From the NCBI GenBank assembly GCA_016871315.1, contig VFZE01000025.1, forward strand, positions 1 through 64,000: 64,000 bases of DNA, read 5' to 3'. This DNA comes from Acidimicrobiia bacterium (lineage in GTDB: Bacteria; Acidobacteriota; Terriglobia; Bryobacterales; Bryobacteraceae). This document shows, piece after piece, positions 21,202-30,506 of this stretch (position 1 is its first letter; each line of letters begins with the position of its first letter). The notes beneath the pieces are model-generated. The model saw only the letters and a list, made by a program, of their open reading frames with translations, had not been told where the DNA came from and made no database searches. The translations under genes were made by a program, and so were the position numbers.

Positions 21202-21756
21202 TCACACCCCAGCTAGGTTCGGCGGGGTCTTCTCCAAACCATGTTCCACTGCCCAAAGATCCATCGGCAGCGCCACAAGTTCATCCACCTCCGCCACCGC
21301 CCGCGGCTCCCTCCCCATATCGATCACCTGTAGATACCGCCGGCACGATTCACACACTCGCGTCTGGATGTGCGGAATCGTCTCATTCTTATACCACGCG
21401 ATTTCGCCTGCCTCGCAGTGCGGACAAGCCTCCCGAGGGAATGAGTACTCCTCCTTGCACGTGTCGCAGAAAAGAAGGAATGCGGCGCCGTCGCCTTCCG
21501 GGCGTAGCACTCCCAACAGCGGCGTGTGCGACGTGCACACCCGCGCGTGCAGCCGCTCCATAAACGAGACCGCCGGCTCGCGCTTTTCTCTTGCCGCCTC
21601 CGCCAGCGCCGCCGGAGCATGCTCGATCAGCAACTGCCGCAACGCCTCCGGCTTCGACAACACCGCGCGCGCATACAACTCCAGCACCTCGCGGGCATGT
21701 GGATAGCGCTCCGCCAAGTGGCGGGCTCTTAGCGCTCGCTGCTCTCCCGATACCAT
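21202..21756 (-). CDS. fdhE: Formate dehydrogenase accessory protein FdhE (short form)
   Basis: A 184-residue protein with three CxxC pairs typical of FdhE: C97-C100, C111-C114 (CDTCKEEYSFPREACPHC) and C135-C138 (VCESCRRYLQVID), and the end ELVALPMDLWAVEHG. E. coli FdhE is about 309 residues; this copy is shorter mainly at the N-terminus. FdhE binds an iron centre and is needed for activity of respiratory formate dehydrogenases. The gene overlaps the gamma-subunit gene by 28 bases and is last in the operon. Confidence 0.85.
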   Translation of the reverse strand: MVSGEQRALRARHLAERYPHAREVLELYARAVLSKPEALRQLLIEHAPAALAEAAREKREPAVSFMERLHARVCTSHTPLLGVLRPEGDGAAFLLFCDTCKEEYSFPREACPHCEAGEIAWYKNETIPHIQTRVCESCRRYLQVIDMGREPRAVAEVDELVALPMDLWAVEHGLEKTPPNLAGV

Positions 21757-22346
21757 TTCCGGTGATGAGACGCCGCCCAGGAAGGTGTCACCCAGCCCTG
21801 CACCATGCTGCGCAGCGCGCCGGGCACCGCCGCCGTCCCCATATAGATATGGATGATGATCCCGCCGATCGAGCCGATCGCCGCCAGCGGGTGAATCAGC
21901 ACCGCCGCCAGCCGCAGCGTCCTAGGCATCACCTCCGGCCACCAAAGAACAAGCCCTGTCGCGAAAAGCAAAACCGTCGCCAGCGCCTGGCTCCAGAACA
22001 GCATCTTCTGCCCTGCGTTGAAGCGGCCCGACTCCGGCACGCCCTCTTCCTCGTGCACAGCGTACTTGTGCGCCTTGCGCAGCCACTCCCGGTCATCCGT
22101 GTCCAGCTTCATCTGCCCGGCCCACTTCCGGAACATCACCGCCAGCACAACCGCGAAGATCGTCCCGCCCCACGGATGCAATCCGCGAACCGTCACTCCC
22201 CCGCCGAACACCCACGCCAGCCAGTACAGCTTGTGCGACCACAGCGCCAGTCCCGTCAGCGCCGCGTAGAGATAACTCAGCGCCGCCAGCCAGTGCACCG
22301 TCCGCTCGTAAAGATCGAACCGCGCCATCCGCCGTTCACTCTGCAT
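21729..22346 (-). CDS. fdnI: Formate dehydrogenase gamma subunit, cytochrome b556
   Basis: A 205-residue four-helix membrane cytochrome. The ATG at 22346 is chosen because an AAGGAG site sits 7 bases before it. Candidate b-haem His residues lie in YERTVHWLAALSY, VRGLHPWGG, LIHPLAAIG and GIIIHIYMG, as expected for two haems that pass electrons from the Fe-S subunit to quinone. The start overlaps the end of the fdnH-like gene by 11 bases. Confidence 0.9.
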   Translation of the reverse strand: MQSERRMARFDLYERTVHWLAALSYLYAALTGLALWSHKLYWLAWVFGGGVTVRGLHPWGGTIFAVVLAVMFRKWAGQMKLDTDDREWLRKAHKYAVHEEEGVPESGRFNAGQKMLFWSQALATVLLFATGLVLWWPEVMPRTLRLAAVLIHPLAAIGSIGGIIIHIYMGTAAVPGALRSMVQGWVTPSWAASHHRKWYRESSER

Positions 22347-23124
22347 CGGCGTGCTCCTTCTTCGGGCCGTAGCGCACATAGTGGAAAAACGCGCCCAGGA
22401 TTCCCCCGGCCACCACCAGCGAACCCAGCCACTTCACCGGACCCTTCCATAGACGCACCGCCAGCGGAACCGACGGGTCACGCGGCAGTCCGTAATCCTC
22501 CGGCCGCGCCGCGTTGGCCAGCACGTACAGCACGTGGGTCCCGCCGACGCCTGCCGGGTTGTAGACGCCCGCCGCGGCCACGCCATCCGCCTGCAACTCC
22601 GCCGTGCGCGATTGCGCCTTCTCCAGCAGATCCTCCCTCGTGCCGAACGTCAGGCAATTGGTCGGGCACGTCTTAATGCAGGCCGGCTCCAGCCCCACCG
22701 CCGTGCGGTCCGAACACAACGAGCACTTGTAGACCTTCTTCGTCGTCGGACTCAGCCGCGGCACATCAAACGGACAGCCCGTGATGCAGTAGCCACAGCC
22801 GATGCAATTGTCATGGTTGAAATCGACAATGCCGTTCTTCAGATGCACGATCGCGCCCGGCGCCGGACACGCGCGCAGGCAGCCCGGATCCACGCAATGC
22901 ATGCACTGGTACTTCGACATCAGCCAGCTCAGCTTCCCGCCGCGCTCGAATTCGTTGAACTTGATCAGGTTCCAGAAGTTGGGCGCCAGGTCCGGCAGCG
23001 TCTGGTAGGAGCCGTCGAAAGTCCCCAGCGTGAACTCCTGATCGTTCCACGTCTGGCAGGCAACCTCGCATGCCTTGCAGCCGATGCACAGCGTCGTATC
23101 GATCAGTTTGGCCACGGTGTGCAT
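22336..23124 (-). CDS. fdnH: Formate dehydrogenase iron-sulfur (beta) subunit
   Basis: A 262-residue protein with four [4Fe-4S] motif sets: CIGCKACEVACQTWN, CMHCVDPGCLRACPAPGA, CIGCGYCITGCPFDVPR and CSLCSDRTAVGLEPACIKTCP. A single C-terminal membrane helix (about residues 225-248, WLGSLVVAGGILGAFFHYV) anchors it to the membrane, as in FdnH/FdoH. Its ATG overlaps the stop of the alpha gene by one base. It carries electrons from the Sec-containing alpha subunit to the b-haems. Confidence 0.93.
   Translation of the reverse strand: MHTVAKLIDTTLCIGCKACEVACQTWNDQEFTLGTFDGSYQTLPDLAPNFWNLIKFNEFERGGKLSWLMSKYQCMHCVDPGCLRACPAPGAIVHLKNGIVDFNHDNCIGCGYCITGCPFDVPRLSPTTKKVYKCSLCSDRTAVGLEPACIKTCPTNCLTFGTREDLLEKAQSRTAELQADGVAAAGVYNPAGVGGTHVLYVLANAARPEDYGLPRDPSVPLAVRLWKGPVKWLGSLVVAGGILGAFFHYVRYGPKKEHADAE
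22354..22359 (-). promoter_or_regulatory. Ribosome-binding site that decides the fdnI start
   Basis: AAGGAG inside the fdnH coding end, 7 bases before the ATG at 22346. Confidence 0.6.
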
Positions 23125-26100
23125 CAGGAGATCTTCTCCAGGTTCACCAGGAACCCCTTGTACTCCGGCGTGCCCGAGTTGGGATCAAACACCGACGCGG
23201 TCAGATTGTTGATCAGCGGACCGGTCACCTTGCCCAGCCAGCCCCAGTGAATCGGCAGCCCGATCTGATACACCGTCTTTCCGCTCACCTTCAGCCCCGG
23301 GATGCGTTTGGTCACCAGCGCCGGACCTTCCACCTTTCCGCGCGCCGAGCTGACACGAACCATATCGCCGCTCGCGATCTTCTTCTCCACGGCCAGATCG
23401 TGCGGCACTTCCACGAAGAACCGGCTCTGCAACTCGGAGCTGGAAGCAATGTGCTTGGTCCAATAATGGAAATGCTCCGTCAGCCGGTAGGTCAGCCCGA
23501 CGTAGGGGAACTCGGCTGCCGCACCCAGCTTGTCCATCACAAAGGCCGCCGGGTTGAAGCTGACCTTCGGATGCAGCGCATTCTCAACCGGCGATTCCGC
23601 AGGTTCGTAGTGTTCCGGGAACGGACCCTCGGCGAAATCCGGCGTGAACAGCTTCGCCACGCCTTCCGGCAGCATCAGAAACGCCCCGTGCGCTTGCGGC
23701 GCCGCATCGGCCTTGTAGTCTGCCGCGTCGCCTGACCAGCGTGTGCCGTTCCACCGGATCGGCGCCCGCGTCGCGTCCCACGGCTTGCCCTCATGATCGA
23801 GCGAGGCGCGGTTATAAAGGACGCGCCGGTTGGCCGGCCAGCTCCAGCTGTAGTTGGGATACAGGCCCAGCCCCGTCGGATCATCCTGTCCGCGCCGCGC
23901 CATCATGTTGCCGGCCTCGGTATAGGAGCCCGAATAGAGCCAGTTGCCGCATACCGTCGACCCGTCATCCTTCAATTCGCCGAAGCCATTCAACTGCCGC
24001 AGCGTGCCCGTCTCGCGCCCGTTCACCTCGCGCGCCACCTCAACCAGCGATGGCGACAGCGGATTGGCATAGTTCCACGACATGTTCCGTAGGGGCTCGG
24101 CGCCGGCGCCGCCCTCCTTCTCATTCAGCTCGCGAATCTTCAGAAACAGCCTCGCGATAATCTCCTGGTCGCGCAGCGCTTCGCCCGGCGGATCCACCGC
24201 CGCTTCTTTCCACTGCAGCCAGCGCGACGAGTTCACGAACGCCCCGTCCTTCTCCGCAAAGCAAGCCGCCGGAAGCAGGAACACCTCCGTCTGGATCTTC
24301 GAAGCCTCGCCCGAATCCGGATAGTATTCATCCGCCAACTCGCGCGCCCGCCAGAAGGCCGCCGTCTCCGTCTCGAAATTCTCGGCCACGATCAGCCACT
24401 TCAACTTTGACAGTGCCCCGATCATCTTCTCTGTGTTCGGCCCGTTGGCCACCGGATTCATGCCGAAGCTGATCAGCCCCTCCATCCCCCCGCGATGCAT
24501 GCGGTCAAACAGAAAACCCCAGCTATGGTTGTCGTTCTCGCCCGCCTTCGGCAGCCAGTTGTAGCCGTACCCGTTCGCCGCCGTTGCCTTCTCGCCGTAG
24601 TAGGCCTTCAACAGGCTCACCATGAACTTCGATGTGTTCGACCAGTAGTTCAGCGAATCCGGCCGCAGCGGTTTCGGTGTGTTCGCCTTGACGTACTCAT
24701 CGAGCGTCGCCCAGTTGGCGCGCGGCAGTTTCAGATAACCCGGCAGCATGTTCCAGGCGCCCATATCGGTCGAGCCCTGAATGTTGGCGTGGCCACGCTG
24801 CGCATTTACGCCGCCACCGGGCATGCCGATGTTGCCCATCAGCAGCTGCACCACCGCCGCGGCATGTATCAGCTGCACGGAATGCGAATGCTGCGTCCAA
24901 CCCAGCGCGTACAGCACCGTTCCACTCTTGTCGTTGGCCGCCGCGACCGTGACCATCTCCGCCGCCTTCAGGAAATCCTCTTTCGTGCAGCCGCAGATGG
25001 CAGCCACCACCTCCGGCGTGTACCGCGCGTAGTGCTTCCTCATCAGCTGGAACACCGACCGCGGATGTTCGAGCGACGGATCCACCTTCGCGTAACCCTG
25101 TCCGTCCACCTCATACGCCCAGGTCGATTTGTCGTAGCGCTTGGCCTCCGCGTCCCATCCGGAAAAGTGGCCGTCCTCGAACCCGTAGCCTTCCTTCACC
25201 AGAAACGCCGCGTTGGTGTGCTGCCGCACATACTCCGCCTGAAACTTGTCGTTCGAAAGCGCGTAATGGATCAGCCCGCCCAGAAACGCGATATCGGACC
25301 CCGCGCGGATCGGCACAAAGCAGTCCGCCACCGTCGCCGTGCGGTTGAACCGCGGATCCACCACCACCAGCTTCGCCTTCCGCTTCCGCCTCGCCTCCAT
25401 CACAAAGCGGAAACCCACCGGATGATTCTCCGCCGGATTGCCTCCCATCACCAGCACGACATCGGCGTTGGCGACATCGGTCCAGCCGTTCGTCATCGCC
25501 CCTCGTCCGAACGTGGCGGCCAGACTGGCCACCGTCGGGCCGTGTCAAAGACGGGCCTGATTTTCGTAGGGAACAATCCCCAGCCCGAACCGCAGCTTGC
25601 CGAGCAGATAATTCACCTCGTTGGTGTCGGTGCAGCCGCCGATCATGCCCACCGTCGCCAGACTGTTCACCGTCCGCCCTTGCGAATCGGCCGCCACGAA
25701 GCCCCGGTCGCGCGAATCCTTGATCAGCCGCGCCATCCGCGTCAGCGCATCATCCCACTCGATCGGAGTCCACTGCGAGGAGCCCGGAGCGCGATGCAGC
25801 GGCCTTGTCAGCCGACGGTCGCTGAGCACGAACTCCTTGAGCGACGCTCCCTTCGGACACAGCGTCCCGCGATTAATCGGACTTGCCGGATCGCCTTCAA
25901 TATGCACAATCGCCGGTTTGACGTTATGCGCCTTATCGCCCAGCGTGTGGATCACCACCGAGCAGCCCACCGCGCAGTAGGGGCACACCGATTGCGTCTG
26001 CGTCGTGCGCGAAATCTTCAGCTCGCGCACCATCGCCGCCGCCGGCCGCAGATCAAATCCCAGCGCCGTGGCCGCCAGCGCAGCCGAGGAGCCCAGAAAG

Positions 26101-26126
26101 CCCCGCCGGTTCATTTGCCCGTCCAT
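23124..26126 (-). CDS. fdnG: Selenocysteine-containing formate dehydrogenase-N alpha subunit
   Basis: One 1000-residue gene read through an in-frame TGA at 25545-25547 (Sec194). Before the TGA: Tat signal NRRGFLGSSAA, [4Fe-4S] motif CPYCAVGCSVV...GTLCPKG, and ENQARL. After it: HGPTVASLAATFGRGAMTN, exactly the context of Sec196 in E. coli FdnG (NQARV-U-HGPTVASL). Sec is the molybdenum/tungsten ligand. The full length is close to FdnG (1015), and both halves are in the same frame with no other stop. A SECIS-like hairpin follows the TGA. An annotation pipeline would likely split this gene in two or call it a pseudogene. Operon: fdnG-fdnH-fdnI-fdhE. The start could also be the MNRRGFL at 26114. 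Confidence 0.92.
25515..25547 (-). promoter_or_regulatory. UGA selenocysteine codon and bacterial SECIS hairpin
   Basis: In the mRNA the UGA (25547-25545) is followed after 11 bases by GGUGGCC, loop AGUCU, GGCCGCC: a 7-pair stem (one U-G) with a GUCU-type loop. E. coli fdhF and fdnG carry the same loop sequence at nearly the same distance, where SelB binds. The hairpin lies within coding sequence, as bacterial SECIS elements do. Confidence 0.85.
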
Positions 26127-26183: not shown

Positions 26184-29100
26184 TCACCTCACGCCCATCG
26201 TCACCGTTGCGCTCGTCTGCCCGCCGGCTTGCACCACAACCGGAACAACGGCTCCTGGCACGACTCCGGCGGGAATCACCGCGTTGATCTGATACAGGCC
26301 TGCCGACCCCGGCGTCAGCCCGGCGAACTGCACCTGCGCAGCCTGGCCCCCGATCGTCACTTGAACCGGCGCCACCACATGACGCAGTGGTGAGGCGGGA
26401 GTTTCAGCCCCGGCGGCGATGAGTGGCTCCACGGAGCCCAAGCCTTCGCAATAGATCACCACAACGGAGCCGCGATCGGCTGGGTTCGCGGCGTCCGCCA
26501 GCAATGCCAGATTGGCTCCGTGCACAATCGCTCCTTGTCTGGATCCACCGCCACCGCTGACGAATACCGCCGGCGCTGTTTCCGCCACCGCCACCTCTGC
26601 GTCCGCCTGCGCGGTGCCGAGGTTGACGCGAAGGGGATGGAGGATGTTTGGAGTCAGTCCGTAGGGAAGAATCGCGTTCACCTGGCTGGGTCCAGCGAAG
26701 AACAGAGGCGCCGGCAGCAGCGGTCCGGACAAGGTGAGCCTCGTCAGGCCGAGCCGGAACGGAAGCGGCAAGCTCGCCGCCGCTGCCGGGCTTTCCGCCA
26801 AGCCCGATCCGAAAACGGCGACAATTCCGCCAGGCGCCACAGGAGCTCCGGCGAGAAAGCTGGCCGCACTTACCACGGAGCCCTCGCTGATGAATGGCCC
26901 CAGCGCGCCCGTCAGCGTGCCGGACGCCTCCCGGCAACCCGTCAGCGTGCCGTTCTCGTTTGCCGCCAGTACACGTAAGGTTGCCGGAGTTAACGCGCCG
27001 CCGGCGAACAGTGTTCCGCTCCATCGGCCGGCGTCCAACGGGTCGGCAGTCAAGCTGCTGATCCGTGCCGTTCCTGTGAGGGAAGCCGTCACTTCGCCGG
27101 AGCGTAAAGGCTGGCCGTCATTGCCTGTCACGCGAACCTCGACCGGCAGGGGCGCCTGCACGGGCGAACTAAAGCCACCGGCATGGCGGAGCAGGCTGAC
27201 TTGCAATCCGCCGGGCGGGCAAACCGCATCGGCGTGTCTTTCCATTTGCGCCGAGGCCGCCCGCGGCGCGTTGTCACTTACGATGAGGGCAAGATCCACG
27301 ACGCGGACCCTGAGATCGCCCGCCGCGCGCAGCGACAGGGCGGTGCGGTATGTCCCGGCGCGCAGGTTGGCCGCGTTGGCCAGGATATCGAGCTCGAGTG
27401 AGCCGCCCGCGGCCACGTTTCCGGAACTCGCGCCGGGCAGGCTCCAGATGCCGTTGCCTTGCAGCTGCGCTTCGATCCGCAGCGGCGCCGAGCCGGTGTT
27501 GTGTACGCGCACGGATTGGCGCGGCAGAAGGCCTTGGCCGGTCCGCGCAGTTAACAGCAGGCCCGCCGGACGCGCCTCCCACAGGACCGTGCCGGGTTCG
27601 ACCGTCAGACTGACCACGACTACTCGGGGGGAATTGTCCACTCCTTCGGCGCGCACAACGACGTCGCCGAAGTAGGATCCTGGCGCCAGCCCGGCGGCGT
27701 TCACCTGGACCTCGGTTTCGAGCGGCCTGTCCGGACTGCTGTCTCCCGCCGTCCGCGACAGGCTGAGCCATTGCGGCAGATCCGGCTCCACCCGCGTTTG
27801 CGCCGTCCAGGGGAATGCCCCTCCGGCAGCGCGGATTTGGAAACTCTGTGGCGGCAGCCGCTGGGCGCCGGCGCCTGCCTGGAAGGCGAGGCCGGTTTGC
27901 GAAAGCTCTATGAGACGGTCTCCATTGCTGACCGCCAGCAAAACCGGAACTCGAAGTTGCTCCACCGCCGCGGCGCCGGTTTCGAGATCCAGCTGAAGCG
28001 CCGCGCGGTAGACGCCCGGTGCGAGGCCGGCGGGGAGAAACGAGAACAGCACGCGGAGTGAGGAGCCGGCGGCGATCAAGGCGTTTAATGGCGTTGCCCT
28101 TACCCATCCCTGCCCGGTGAGGAACTCCAGGCTCCCTCCGTATCGAACCGGCGATGCGCCCCGGTTGAACAAAGTGAGCCCTTTGCTCAGCTGTCCGGCG
28201 CCGTGGGGCGCGCCCGCCTGCACCGCGGCGGGTTCGGCCACAAGCTGAGGCAGCGGCGCGCGGCCGACGAGAAAGCGTACGGGAATCCTGCGGCCGGCCG
28301 CGTTAACCTCTGCCTGATAGGAGCCCGGCGTCAGCCGCGACGGGTCGCCCACAACTTCAAAGAGCATCGGCGAGCGGCCCACGGCTGGGTCGACGCTCAG
28401 CCAAGGGGCCCCGCCACCGGCGGAAACCTCAATCCCCTGCCCAGGTACGTCCCCCGCCGCGCCGACTGGATGCCGGACCGGCGGTCCGCCGCTGTAGCCG
28501 CGCAGCGTCAGTTCCACCAATTCCACCTGCACAGGCCCACCTACGAGCAACGAGCAGCTCTTGCGGCCGATGGCCTGCCCGCTGTCGAGCGCCTGCACCG
28601 TGAATTCGAACAGCCCGGTTTCCGACGCCGTCCCCGATATGGTTCCGTCCGGGGAAAGAGCGAGGCCGCGGGGAAGGCGTCCGTGGAACATCTGGAAAAC
28701 GTAAGGGGGCCTTCCGCCGGCGGCCTGGAAGCGCTGTTGAAAGGCTGCGCCGATGCCGGTTTGCGGCAGCGGGCAGGGCGTTTCGATGGTGACCGGAGGC
28801 AGCACGCGCAGCGTGTATCTTCGCCGCGCTGTCCGTCCCAGTTCGTCGGTCATTTCTATTTCCAGCTCGGACTGCCCTTCCCGTTCCGGCACGCCGGAGA
28901 TCGCGCCTGTCTCAGCGACGCGCAAGCCCGGGGGCAGCGTGCCGCCGCTCTGACGCCACCGCAATGCTCCCACGCCGCGGCCGGAGAGTTGGACAAAATA
29001 CGGTACGCCGGTCACGCCGTCGGGAAGCGCGGGAGTGAGGATTTCCGGTGGCGGTAAACTCGGAGGGCAAGGCAGAATCTGACCCGCCTGGAAGTCCGGT

Positions 29101-30506
29101 GCGAGTTGGAAACGTGGCAACACCTGGCCGGCCGCCGTATTGTTGTCCGACACCGGGCCCAAGCCGGCGCGCATGCGCAGCGGCACAGCGGGGCCGCCCT
29201 CGGCATAGGCGACCACCACGGGAATCTCCACGCGATCAATGCCGCCGGCGCTTTCATGCAGGATCTCGAAGACCGCCATTTGGTGGGTTCCGAAATCGGC
29301 CAGCGGCGCGAGGCCGCCGTCCAGCGCGGTGGTCGGCGCGGTGGGGGTAAAGGCGCCCGCGCCGTTCCCGTCGGTATCGATTCTCCGCGCCACGCCGGTT
29401 TGCGTAGCTCCTGCCATCACCGCCGCCCTTACGGCCGTGAAGATCCGCACTCCCGCCGGCATCACATCAAAACGCAAGTAGAGTCTCGTTCCGGAGCCGG
29501 CCAGTCCCGCCGTACTCAGGCCTCCGGTGGCGGGCGAGGCCGGATCGTACAAACCGGACTCGGTTCCATACGCCGATCCGAGAATATCCTGCGCCACGGG
29601 AGGAGGAGCAGTCTCCCCGGTAGTGGGCGGCGAAGGCGTGGCGGTGGTTCTGCGCCGGAACACCGAGGGGAACAACTCTTCCAGGCGGACCATCATTGTC
29701 CGCCCTTGCGGATAAGCCAAGCTGGCAGGGCTGGCCGCCAGCGAGCCGTTATTATCGGCGCACTGGGGGAGCGTAAACCCTCCAGGCAAGACAGCCGCGC
29801 CAGCAGCATCGAGCAGAGTCACGCCGAGCGGTGTCATCGCCTGCGCGACCGTCTGGGCGGGATTCGCGATCGGCAGCGCGGCCGACGTGGAGATGACGAA
29901 AATGAGCGAACCGGTTCCTGGCGGCAGCAACCCGCGCAGATTTGTGAAGCGGAGGATCCTCGTCCCTAATCCAGGCGGGTCAAAAGTCACCCCCTGCCAA
30001 AGCAAGGAGTTCGCGGATGCGAGGAGTGACGGATATACATTGTGGACTGTCTGGCCGGCATTGCTTGGATGACCGGGCGTCGCATAGATGATCCCGGTCC
30101 CGACACCGGTAAGTCCGCAGCTAAGGAGGGGATCGGGGCATACCTGGCGCTGGCTGGGAGCGGGATTATCGATGAACAGGAGAGCCTCGGTTCTGGCCGG
30201 GGAGACCTGTAGCAGCCGGCTTGTAACCGTGGTGTTGGCAAGAAGCTGGATGTTCACCCGCGGAACCGGCTGACCGGTTATCGTGGGTGTCCCGCCGGTG
30301 CAGGCCACGAGAACATCGCCGCCCAGCTCCGCAGAAGACCCGACCCGCGAAGCCACGTTTGCCGCGGCACTGGCAAAGCAAGCCAGGGATTGTGCAAAGG
30401 CTTGGCTCATGGCCATCGCCATTCCCAGCAACACGATGGCCAATCTAGCCTGTCTGCCCGAGAATCCTCGATGACCTCCGACTCCGCATTGCCGAATTGC
30501 AACCAT
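26184..30506 (-). CDS. Giant secreted protein with putative-Ig and BACON-like modules and TIGR03437 domain
   Basis: A 1440-residue protein. An N-terminal signal peptide ends at about residue 39 (LAIVLLGMAMAMSQAFAQ). Residues about 40-490 are beta-rich and unrecognised. Residues about 490-670 hold two putative-Ig (He_PIG) modules (LPPGLRVAETGAISGVPE; LPRGLALSPDGTISGTASE). Then come four or so BACON-like modules with GSYFGDVVV and GTYRTALSL strands. The last about 225 residues are TIGR03437 (GGIVAVFGSGLAESPAAAAS ... GLTPGSAGLYQINAVIPAGV). The architecture parallels the NHL protein at 4154 without a propeller. Likely cell-surface or extracellular; function unknown. Confidence 0.8.
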   Translation of the reverse strand: MVAIRQCGVGGHRGFSGRQARLAIVLLGMAMAMSQAFAQSLACFASAAANVASRVGSSAELGGDVLVACTGGTPTITGQPVPRVNIQLLANTTVTSRLLQVSPARTEALLFIDNPAPSQRQVCPDPLLSCGLTGVGTGIIYATPGHPSNAGQTVHNVYPSLLASANSLLWQGVTFDPPGLGTRILRFTNLRGLLPPGTGSLIFVISTSAALPIANPAQTVAQAMTPLGVTLLDAAGAAVLPGGFTLPQCADNNGSLAASPASLAYPQGRTMMVRLEELFPSVFRRRTTATPSPPTTGETAPPPVAQDILGSAYGTESGLYDPASPATGGLSTAGLAGSGTRLYLRFDVMPAGVRIFTAVRAAVMAGATQTGVARRIDTDGNGAGAFTPTAPTTALDGGLAPLADFGTHQMAVFEILHESAGGIDRVEIPVVVAYAEGGPAVPLRMRAGLGPVSDNNTAAGQVLPRFQLAPDFQAGQILPCPPSLPPPEILTPALPDGVTGVPYFVQLSGRGVGALRWRQSGGTLPPGLRVAETGAISGVPEREGQSELEIEMTDELGRTARRRYTLRVLPPVTIETPCPLPQTGIGAAFQQRFQAAGGRPPYVFQMFHGRLPRGLALSPDGTISGTASETGLFEFTVQALDSGQAIGRKSCSLLVGGPVQVELVELTLRGYSGGPPVRHPVGAAGDVPGQGIEVSAGGGAPWLSVDPAVGRSPMLFEVVGDPSRLTPGSYQAEVNAAGRRIPVRFLVGRAPLPQLVAEPAAVQAGAPHGAGQLSKGLTLFNRGASPVRYGGSLEFLTGQGWVRATPLNALIAAGSSLRVLFSFLPAGLAPGVYRAALQLDLETGAAAVEQLRVPVLLAVSNGDRLIELSQTGLAFQAGAGAQRLPPQSFQIRAAGGAFPWTAQTRVEPDLPQWLSLSRTAGDSSPDRPLETEVQVNAAGLAPGSYFGDVVVRAEGVDNSPRVVVVSLTVEPGTVLWEARPAGLLLTARTGQGLLPRQSVRVHNTGSAPLRIEAQLQGNGIWSLPGASSGNVAAGGSLELDILANAANLRAGTYRTALSLRAAGDLRVRVVDLALIVSDNAPRAASAQMERHADAVCPPGGLQVSLLRHAGGFSSPVQAPLPVEVRVTGNDGQPLRSGEVTASLTGTARISSLTADPLDAGRWSGTLFAGGALTPATLRVLAANENGTLTGCREASGTLTGALGPFISEGSVVSAASFLAGAPVAPGGIVAVFGSGLAESPAAAASLPLPFRLGLTRLTLSGPLLPAPLFFAGPSQVNAILPYGLTPNILHPLRVNLGTAQADAEVAVAETAPAVFVSGGGGSRQGAIVHGANLALLADAANPADRGSVVVIYCEGLGSVEPLIAAGAETPASPLRHVVAPVQVTIGGQAAQVQFAGLTPGSAGLYQINAVIPAGVVPGAVVPVVVQAGGQTSATVTMGVR

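Follow-up and report, generated by a model that had tools for sequence, protein, structure and literature searches.

The question raised by this locus is whether a single in-frame TGA in a formate dehydrogenase gene ends translation or is read as selenocysteine (Sec). The window, the whole stretch of 64,000 nucleotides that was analysed, carries on its minus strand a frame that a first-pass annotation had described as two halves of FdnG split only by a TGA, with flanks matching the Sec site of E. coli FdnG. The annotated features of the gene and its operon are:

23124-26126, minus strand: fdnG/fdoG-type catalytic (alpha) subunit of formate dehydrogenase-N, 1000 aa, predicted Sec at residue 194
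25545-25547, minus strand: in-frame TGA, predicted selenocysteine codon of residue 194, motif UHGP, from the read-through and the alignment with 1kqf_A
22336-23124, minus strand: formate dehydrogenase beta (iron-sulfur) subunit, 262 aa, TIGR01582, 366.2 bits, cut-off 334.7
21729-22379, minus strand: formate dehydrogenase gamma (cytochrome b) subunit, 216 aa, TIGR01583, 179.4 bits, cut-off 115.85
21202-21756, minus strand: short FdhE-like accessory protein, 184 aa, PF24860, 29.5 bits, cut-off 27

The gene and its operon

The frame from 26126 to 23124 was open throughout except for the TGA at 25547-25545, and its read-through translation gave a protein of 1000 aa with U194 as the only internal TGA. 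The TGA is preceded by ENQARL and followed by HGPTVASLAATFGRG. The protein matched TIGR01553 with 1333 bits (curated cut-off 814.2) and contained the Pfam domains Molybdop_Fe4S4, Molybdopterin and Molydop_binding, the last being the dinucleotide-binding domain. Its N-terminus, MNRRGFLGSSAALAATALGF, resembles a Tat signal, a putative motif recognized by eye. The operon order is alpha-beta-gamma-FdhE-like. The profile score, the UGA at the UHxP site and an operon that also encodes the beta and gamma subunits all place the protein in the Sec form of TIGR01553. Both TIGR01553 with the motif UHxP and SelD with UxxK are among the verified selenoproteins in the accessible part of PMC13188914.

E. coli formate dehydrogenase-N (FDH-N) has the same domain types and the same alpha-beta-gamma subunit set. 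Its FdnG (1kqf_A) could be aligned over residues 12-998 with 1088 bits, and the TGA residue fell on the X in ARV-X-HGPTVASL, which we take to be selenocysteine. Both the single frame and the match of the flanks were thus as annotated. The alpha subunits of the Sec formate dehydrogenases 9qm0, 8cm4 and 6sdr (PDB) scored lower, with 890-898 bits over residues 7-999. A difference from the E. coli system is the small size of the FdhE-like protein (184 aa); its match was confined to the C-terminal part of FdhE, and with the whole-protein model TIGR01562 it reached 30.2 bits, under the cut-off of 187.65.

The host had been called an acidobacterium, and its relatives agree with this: the closest named one is a Terriglobia MAG, with 81% protein identity. 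Adjoining fdnG, a 1440-aa protein (26184-30506, minus strand) carries a C-terminal Solibacter domain (TIGR03437), which fits an acidobacterial origin.

The codon at residue 194 in other loci

A total of 135 loci was gathered, 110 of which could be aligned across residue 194. The codon was TGA in 102 of them, spanning several phyla, TGC in 7 and TGT in 1. All TGA loci were at least 43% identical over the N-terminal third; the 8 loci with a Cys codon had 29-34% identity over this part and are distant paralogues. At least four genomes were present twice with identical sites (L026/L107, L027/L109, L030/L114 and L036/L115), and one locus, L106, is the window itself. Therefore, the hairpin was analysed on 61 distinct sequences of 42 nt.

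A second, shorter molybdoenzyme with a TGA aligned with residue 194 was observed at four loci of relatives (L141, L142, L143 and L144, in genomes G040, G032, G004 and G060), where a hairpin with the loop GGUCU comes after the TGA. The protein of L142 matched TIGR01591 (Fdh-alpha) with 624 bits, just below the cut-off of 666.

The hairpin downstream of the TGA

Two features were identified at the TGA:

25515-25533, minus strand: SECIS hairpin, 7-pair stem GGUGGCC/GGCCGCC with loop AGUCU, starting 11 nt past the TGA
25492-25550, minus strand: Rfam SECIS_3 (RF01989) match, 63.8 bits, gathering score 63, E 1.5e-12

The hairpin that had been drawn by eye, with its seven pairs, loop and distance of 11 bases, was recovered at 25533-25515. 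The stem includes one U-G pair among its seven. Folding of the mRNA had been proposed as a check. When the 19-mer was folded with ViennaRNA, the hairpin was present with -13.4 kcal/mol (z -3.98), and the outer A and U of the loop paired as well, so that the stem grew to 8 pairs and the loop shrank to 3 nt. Longer stretches were of unremarkable stability (z -0.82 for 51 nt and -1.44 for 40 nt), therefore folding energy alone is no proof of the hairpin; across relatives the folding-energy test was weak, with a mean z of -0.69. The proof comes from position and conservation. For bacterial SECIS elements, the accessible text of PMC13188914 gives a loop of 3-9 nt with a G within its first two positions, a UGA-to-loop distance of 16-37 nt and an energy of at most -7.5 kcal/mol. 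The fdnG hairpin lies within these ranges, with its AGUCU loop, a distance of 18 nt and the energy of the 19-mer.

The SECIS_3 model was matched over its full length (1-59). This was the sole Rfam match in the window and the sole SECIS_3 match in the whole genome, with a score barely above the gathering score, compared with 84.3 bits in two enterobacterial loci. Among 15 distinct FdnG-type loci, the gathering score was reached by 6 (L060, L064, L066, L079, L101 and L112) and missed by 9 (L031, L055, L107, L108, L111, L114, L118, L120 and L127), all of the latter acidobacterial or from MAGs near acidobacteria. As proteobacterial loci pass this model whereas most of the acidobacterial ones do not, it serves poorly as a yardstick for acidobacteria. 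In Serratia sp. Ag1 the Rfam FdoG1_thermometer (RF02778) was found close upstream of the gene (L066, 5784-6027); an Rfam search gave no match to it within the window.

Across the 61 distinct TGA sequences, the core pairs 2, 4, 5, 6 and 7 were kept in 61, 61, 60, 61 and 61, respectively. Pairs 4, 5 and 7 were kept with several pair types, for example GC, CG, AT, TA and GT at pair 4 and CG and AT at pair 7. Pairs 1 and 3 were kept in no more than 32 and 34 sequences, respectively. At pair 3 the 5' base was U in all 61; in the window it stands opposite G, compared with C, A or U in 31 of the 61 sequences. A bulged U at this position is known in E. coli, although the middle base of a conserved valine codon coincides with this U. 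With the stem in register 87% of the cells were paired, which dropped to 30-59% when the register was slid by 1-3. The core stem together with a G at loop position 2 was observed in 60 of 61 sequences, against 5.1 ± 2.1 expected when synonymous codons were resampled from each gene's own usage; for the organism's own protein sequence (L106) the chance of this combination was 0.03. The serine codon in the loop was AGT in 48 of 48 cases, a codon with a 7.4% share of the serine codons in the same genes. The 8 Cys paralogues retained 0-4 of the 7 hairpin pairs.

Genes for selenocysteine decoding

The prediction that the organism has selA, selB, selC and selD was borne out in its genome (6.25 Mb in 166 contigs, completeness 98.34, contamination 3.05), where all four were found above their own cut-offs, on four different contigs (C86, C21, C36 and C12). 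SelA scored 485 bits, SelD 353 bits and SelB 382 bits, the last with the winged-helix domains wing_2 and wing_3. The tRNA-Sec (selC) scored 69.5 bits and was called tRNA-SeC with anticodon tca by ARAGORN. A second tRNA-Sec match, just above the cut-off, is a tRNA-Ser according to ARAGORN. The selD gene is itself a selenoprotein gene: it has a TGA in AAG-U-ASK, the usual site of the family (L023 at about 2394, contig C12 at about 114925), and the hairpin after it has the loop AGUUA.

In a set of 61 genomes, made up of relatives and its own, selA was above the cut-off in 55, so that co-occurrence of selA with the TGA gene has little power; selD was above the cut-off in 53. One genome with 10% contamination (G031) has the TGA gene and no selA above the cut-off, and in another (G007) selA is split in two pieces at contig ends. 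In genomes from another family of the order (G038, G040-G052, G055 and G056), the open frames that hold SelD are about 750-830 aa long and have no TGA, which suggests a fusion protein.

Distribution of FdhD

FdhD is a sulfurtransferase, a maturation factor that lies outside the definition of the enzyme family. According to the accessible part of a review, fdhD is required by the formate dehydrogenases of E. coli (PMC10609526; see also the accessible parts of PMC8808070 and PMC6239281). In enterobacterial loci (e.g. L066 and L101) fdhD adjoins the operon, whereas FdhD was not found in the window's genome with TIGR00129, with PF02634 or with a profile from four aligned acidobacterial FdhDs, for which E values up to 1 were allowed. 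As a control, the search recovered FdhD in 8 of 14 known genomes.

FdhD was present in 11 of the 61 genomes of relatives. The TGA gene occurs in 22 genomes (G000, G001, G002, G004, G005, G007, G009, G010, G014, G015, G023, G024, G027, G031, G034, G035, G037, G039, G048, G050, G057 and G058), and FdhD was found in five of these (G005, G009, G031, G034 and G058). When only TGA genes with at least 53% identity were counted, FdhD was found in 3 (G005, G031 and G034) of 17 genomes, including its own, and not in the remaining 14, of which 11 are at least 90% complete; many of the genomes searched for FdhD are drafts. A further sample comprised 50 genomes reached via named loci and chosen from 80, 4 of them repeats of earlier ones. 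FdhD was present in 15 of 30 genomes for loci L026-L055, adjoining the formate dehydrogenase gene in L043 and L044. Of 20 proteobacterial isolates 18 had it, L061 among them with no more than a fragment matched; the two that gave no FdhD match, Thiocapsa sp. KS1 (L060) and Thiocystis violacea (L062), both have a Sec formate dehydrogenase. Since FdhD occurs in half of the L026-L055 genomes, and next to the gene in two of these loci, its absence follows no clean rule; it is patchy and not a property of the whole group.

No stand-in for FdhD could be found among the operon neighbours at 23 loci, 11 without and 12 with a genomic FdhD; 8 of 31 candidate loci were omitted (L027, L039, L040, L046 and L055 without FdhD; L050, L052 and L053 with it). 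Judged from position and sequence only, the clusters common to the neighbours resemble antisense shadows, the enzyme's subunits and the FdhE-like protein. Of these, the cluster resembling FdhE occurred at 8 of the 11 loci without FdhD and at 7 of the 12 with it. A literature search for fdhD absence together with a formate dehydrogenase in Acidobacteria returned nothing.

The failure of all three FdhD profiles would also be expected if the system were decaying, with selenocysteine inserted and the enzyme not matured to full activity because FdhD is missing. This is improbable, as relatives that share the lack of FdhD carry an intact and similar gene, unlike in decay, and as organisms with a formate dehydrogenase and without fdhD are mentioned in the accessible part of the review (PMC10609526). 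As a tentative and rather doubtful proposal, this acidobacterial lineage might mature its Sec FDH-N without FdhD, either because another factor supplies the sulfido ligand of the metal or because none is needed. The absence of FdhD is a lead and not a result, and as such it is more interesting than the selenocysteine finding itself.

Discussion

Residue 194 of the alpha subunit is, as judged from sequence, almost certainly selenocysteine. The frame, the TGA codon, the conserved hairpin, the complete set of Sec genes and the subunits of the enzyme count for this, and selenocysteine insertion is by far the best explanation. Weighing against it are the marginal SECIS_3 score, which most acidobacterial orthologues did not even reach, the unremarkable folding energy of longer stretches, the weakly kept pairs 1 and 3, the missing FdhD and the one contaminated genome (G031) with the TGA gene and no selA above the cut-off. 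A lone TGA in an otherwise open frame could also originate from a recent nonsense mutation or a sequencing error, leaving a real stop and a broken gene, but the chance of this is negligible given that 102 of the 110 aligned loci, which come from several phyla, carry a TGA at the identical residue, that the hairpin is maintained through compensatory changes and synonymous choices, and that the frame past the TGA is open and similar across 800 aa. Equally remote is the possibility that UGA stands for an amino acid other than selenocysteine, through general readthrough or a reassigned code: readthrough alone would likewise keep the frame open, but the same gene terminates at a TGA (U1001), the genome holds the full Sec set including tRNA-Sec, and the TGA coincides with the X of E. 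coli FDH-N.

With selenocysteine at this residue, the expected course of events follows that of the family. When the ribosome meets UGA 194, SelB with Sec-tRNA-Sec would bind the downstream hairpin and deliver selenocysteine into residue 194, which would then become a ligand of a molybdenum or tungsten cofactor, the metal being assigned by analogy. The product would be a periplasmic, membrane-bound formate dehydrogenase-N, exported like other members of its family. Formate would probably be oxidised on the outer face of the cytoplasmic membrane, from where electrons may pass via the iron-sulfur subunit and the cytochrome b to quinone, with reaction direction and quinone reduction as in related enzymes.

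Literature searches for Solibacter selenoproteins and for Bryobacter selenocysteine gave nothing relevant, and in a term search 'acidobacteria' was absent from the accessible parts of PMC5029168 and PMC5330540. In the accessible part of PMC1794560, FdhA is reported in 67 of 75 Sec-using organisms, and 3 selenoprotein families with 4 selenoproteins are listed for Acidobacteria as of 2006 (Table 2). No bacterial selenoprotein is more widespread than Sec FdhA, and the present gene is a standard member and not novel. Because Sec formate dehydrogenase is well known from many bacteria, the finding is ordinary and of low interest: the first-pass reading of the TGA as selenocysteine was favoured by both computational checks, while the interest attached to it was overstated for a standard member of the commonest family. 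In practice, annotation should treat the two frames as a single gene, a well-formed addition to the commonest family of bacterial selenoproteins.
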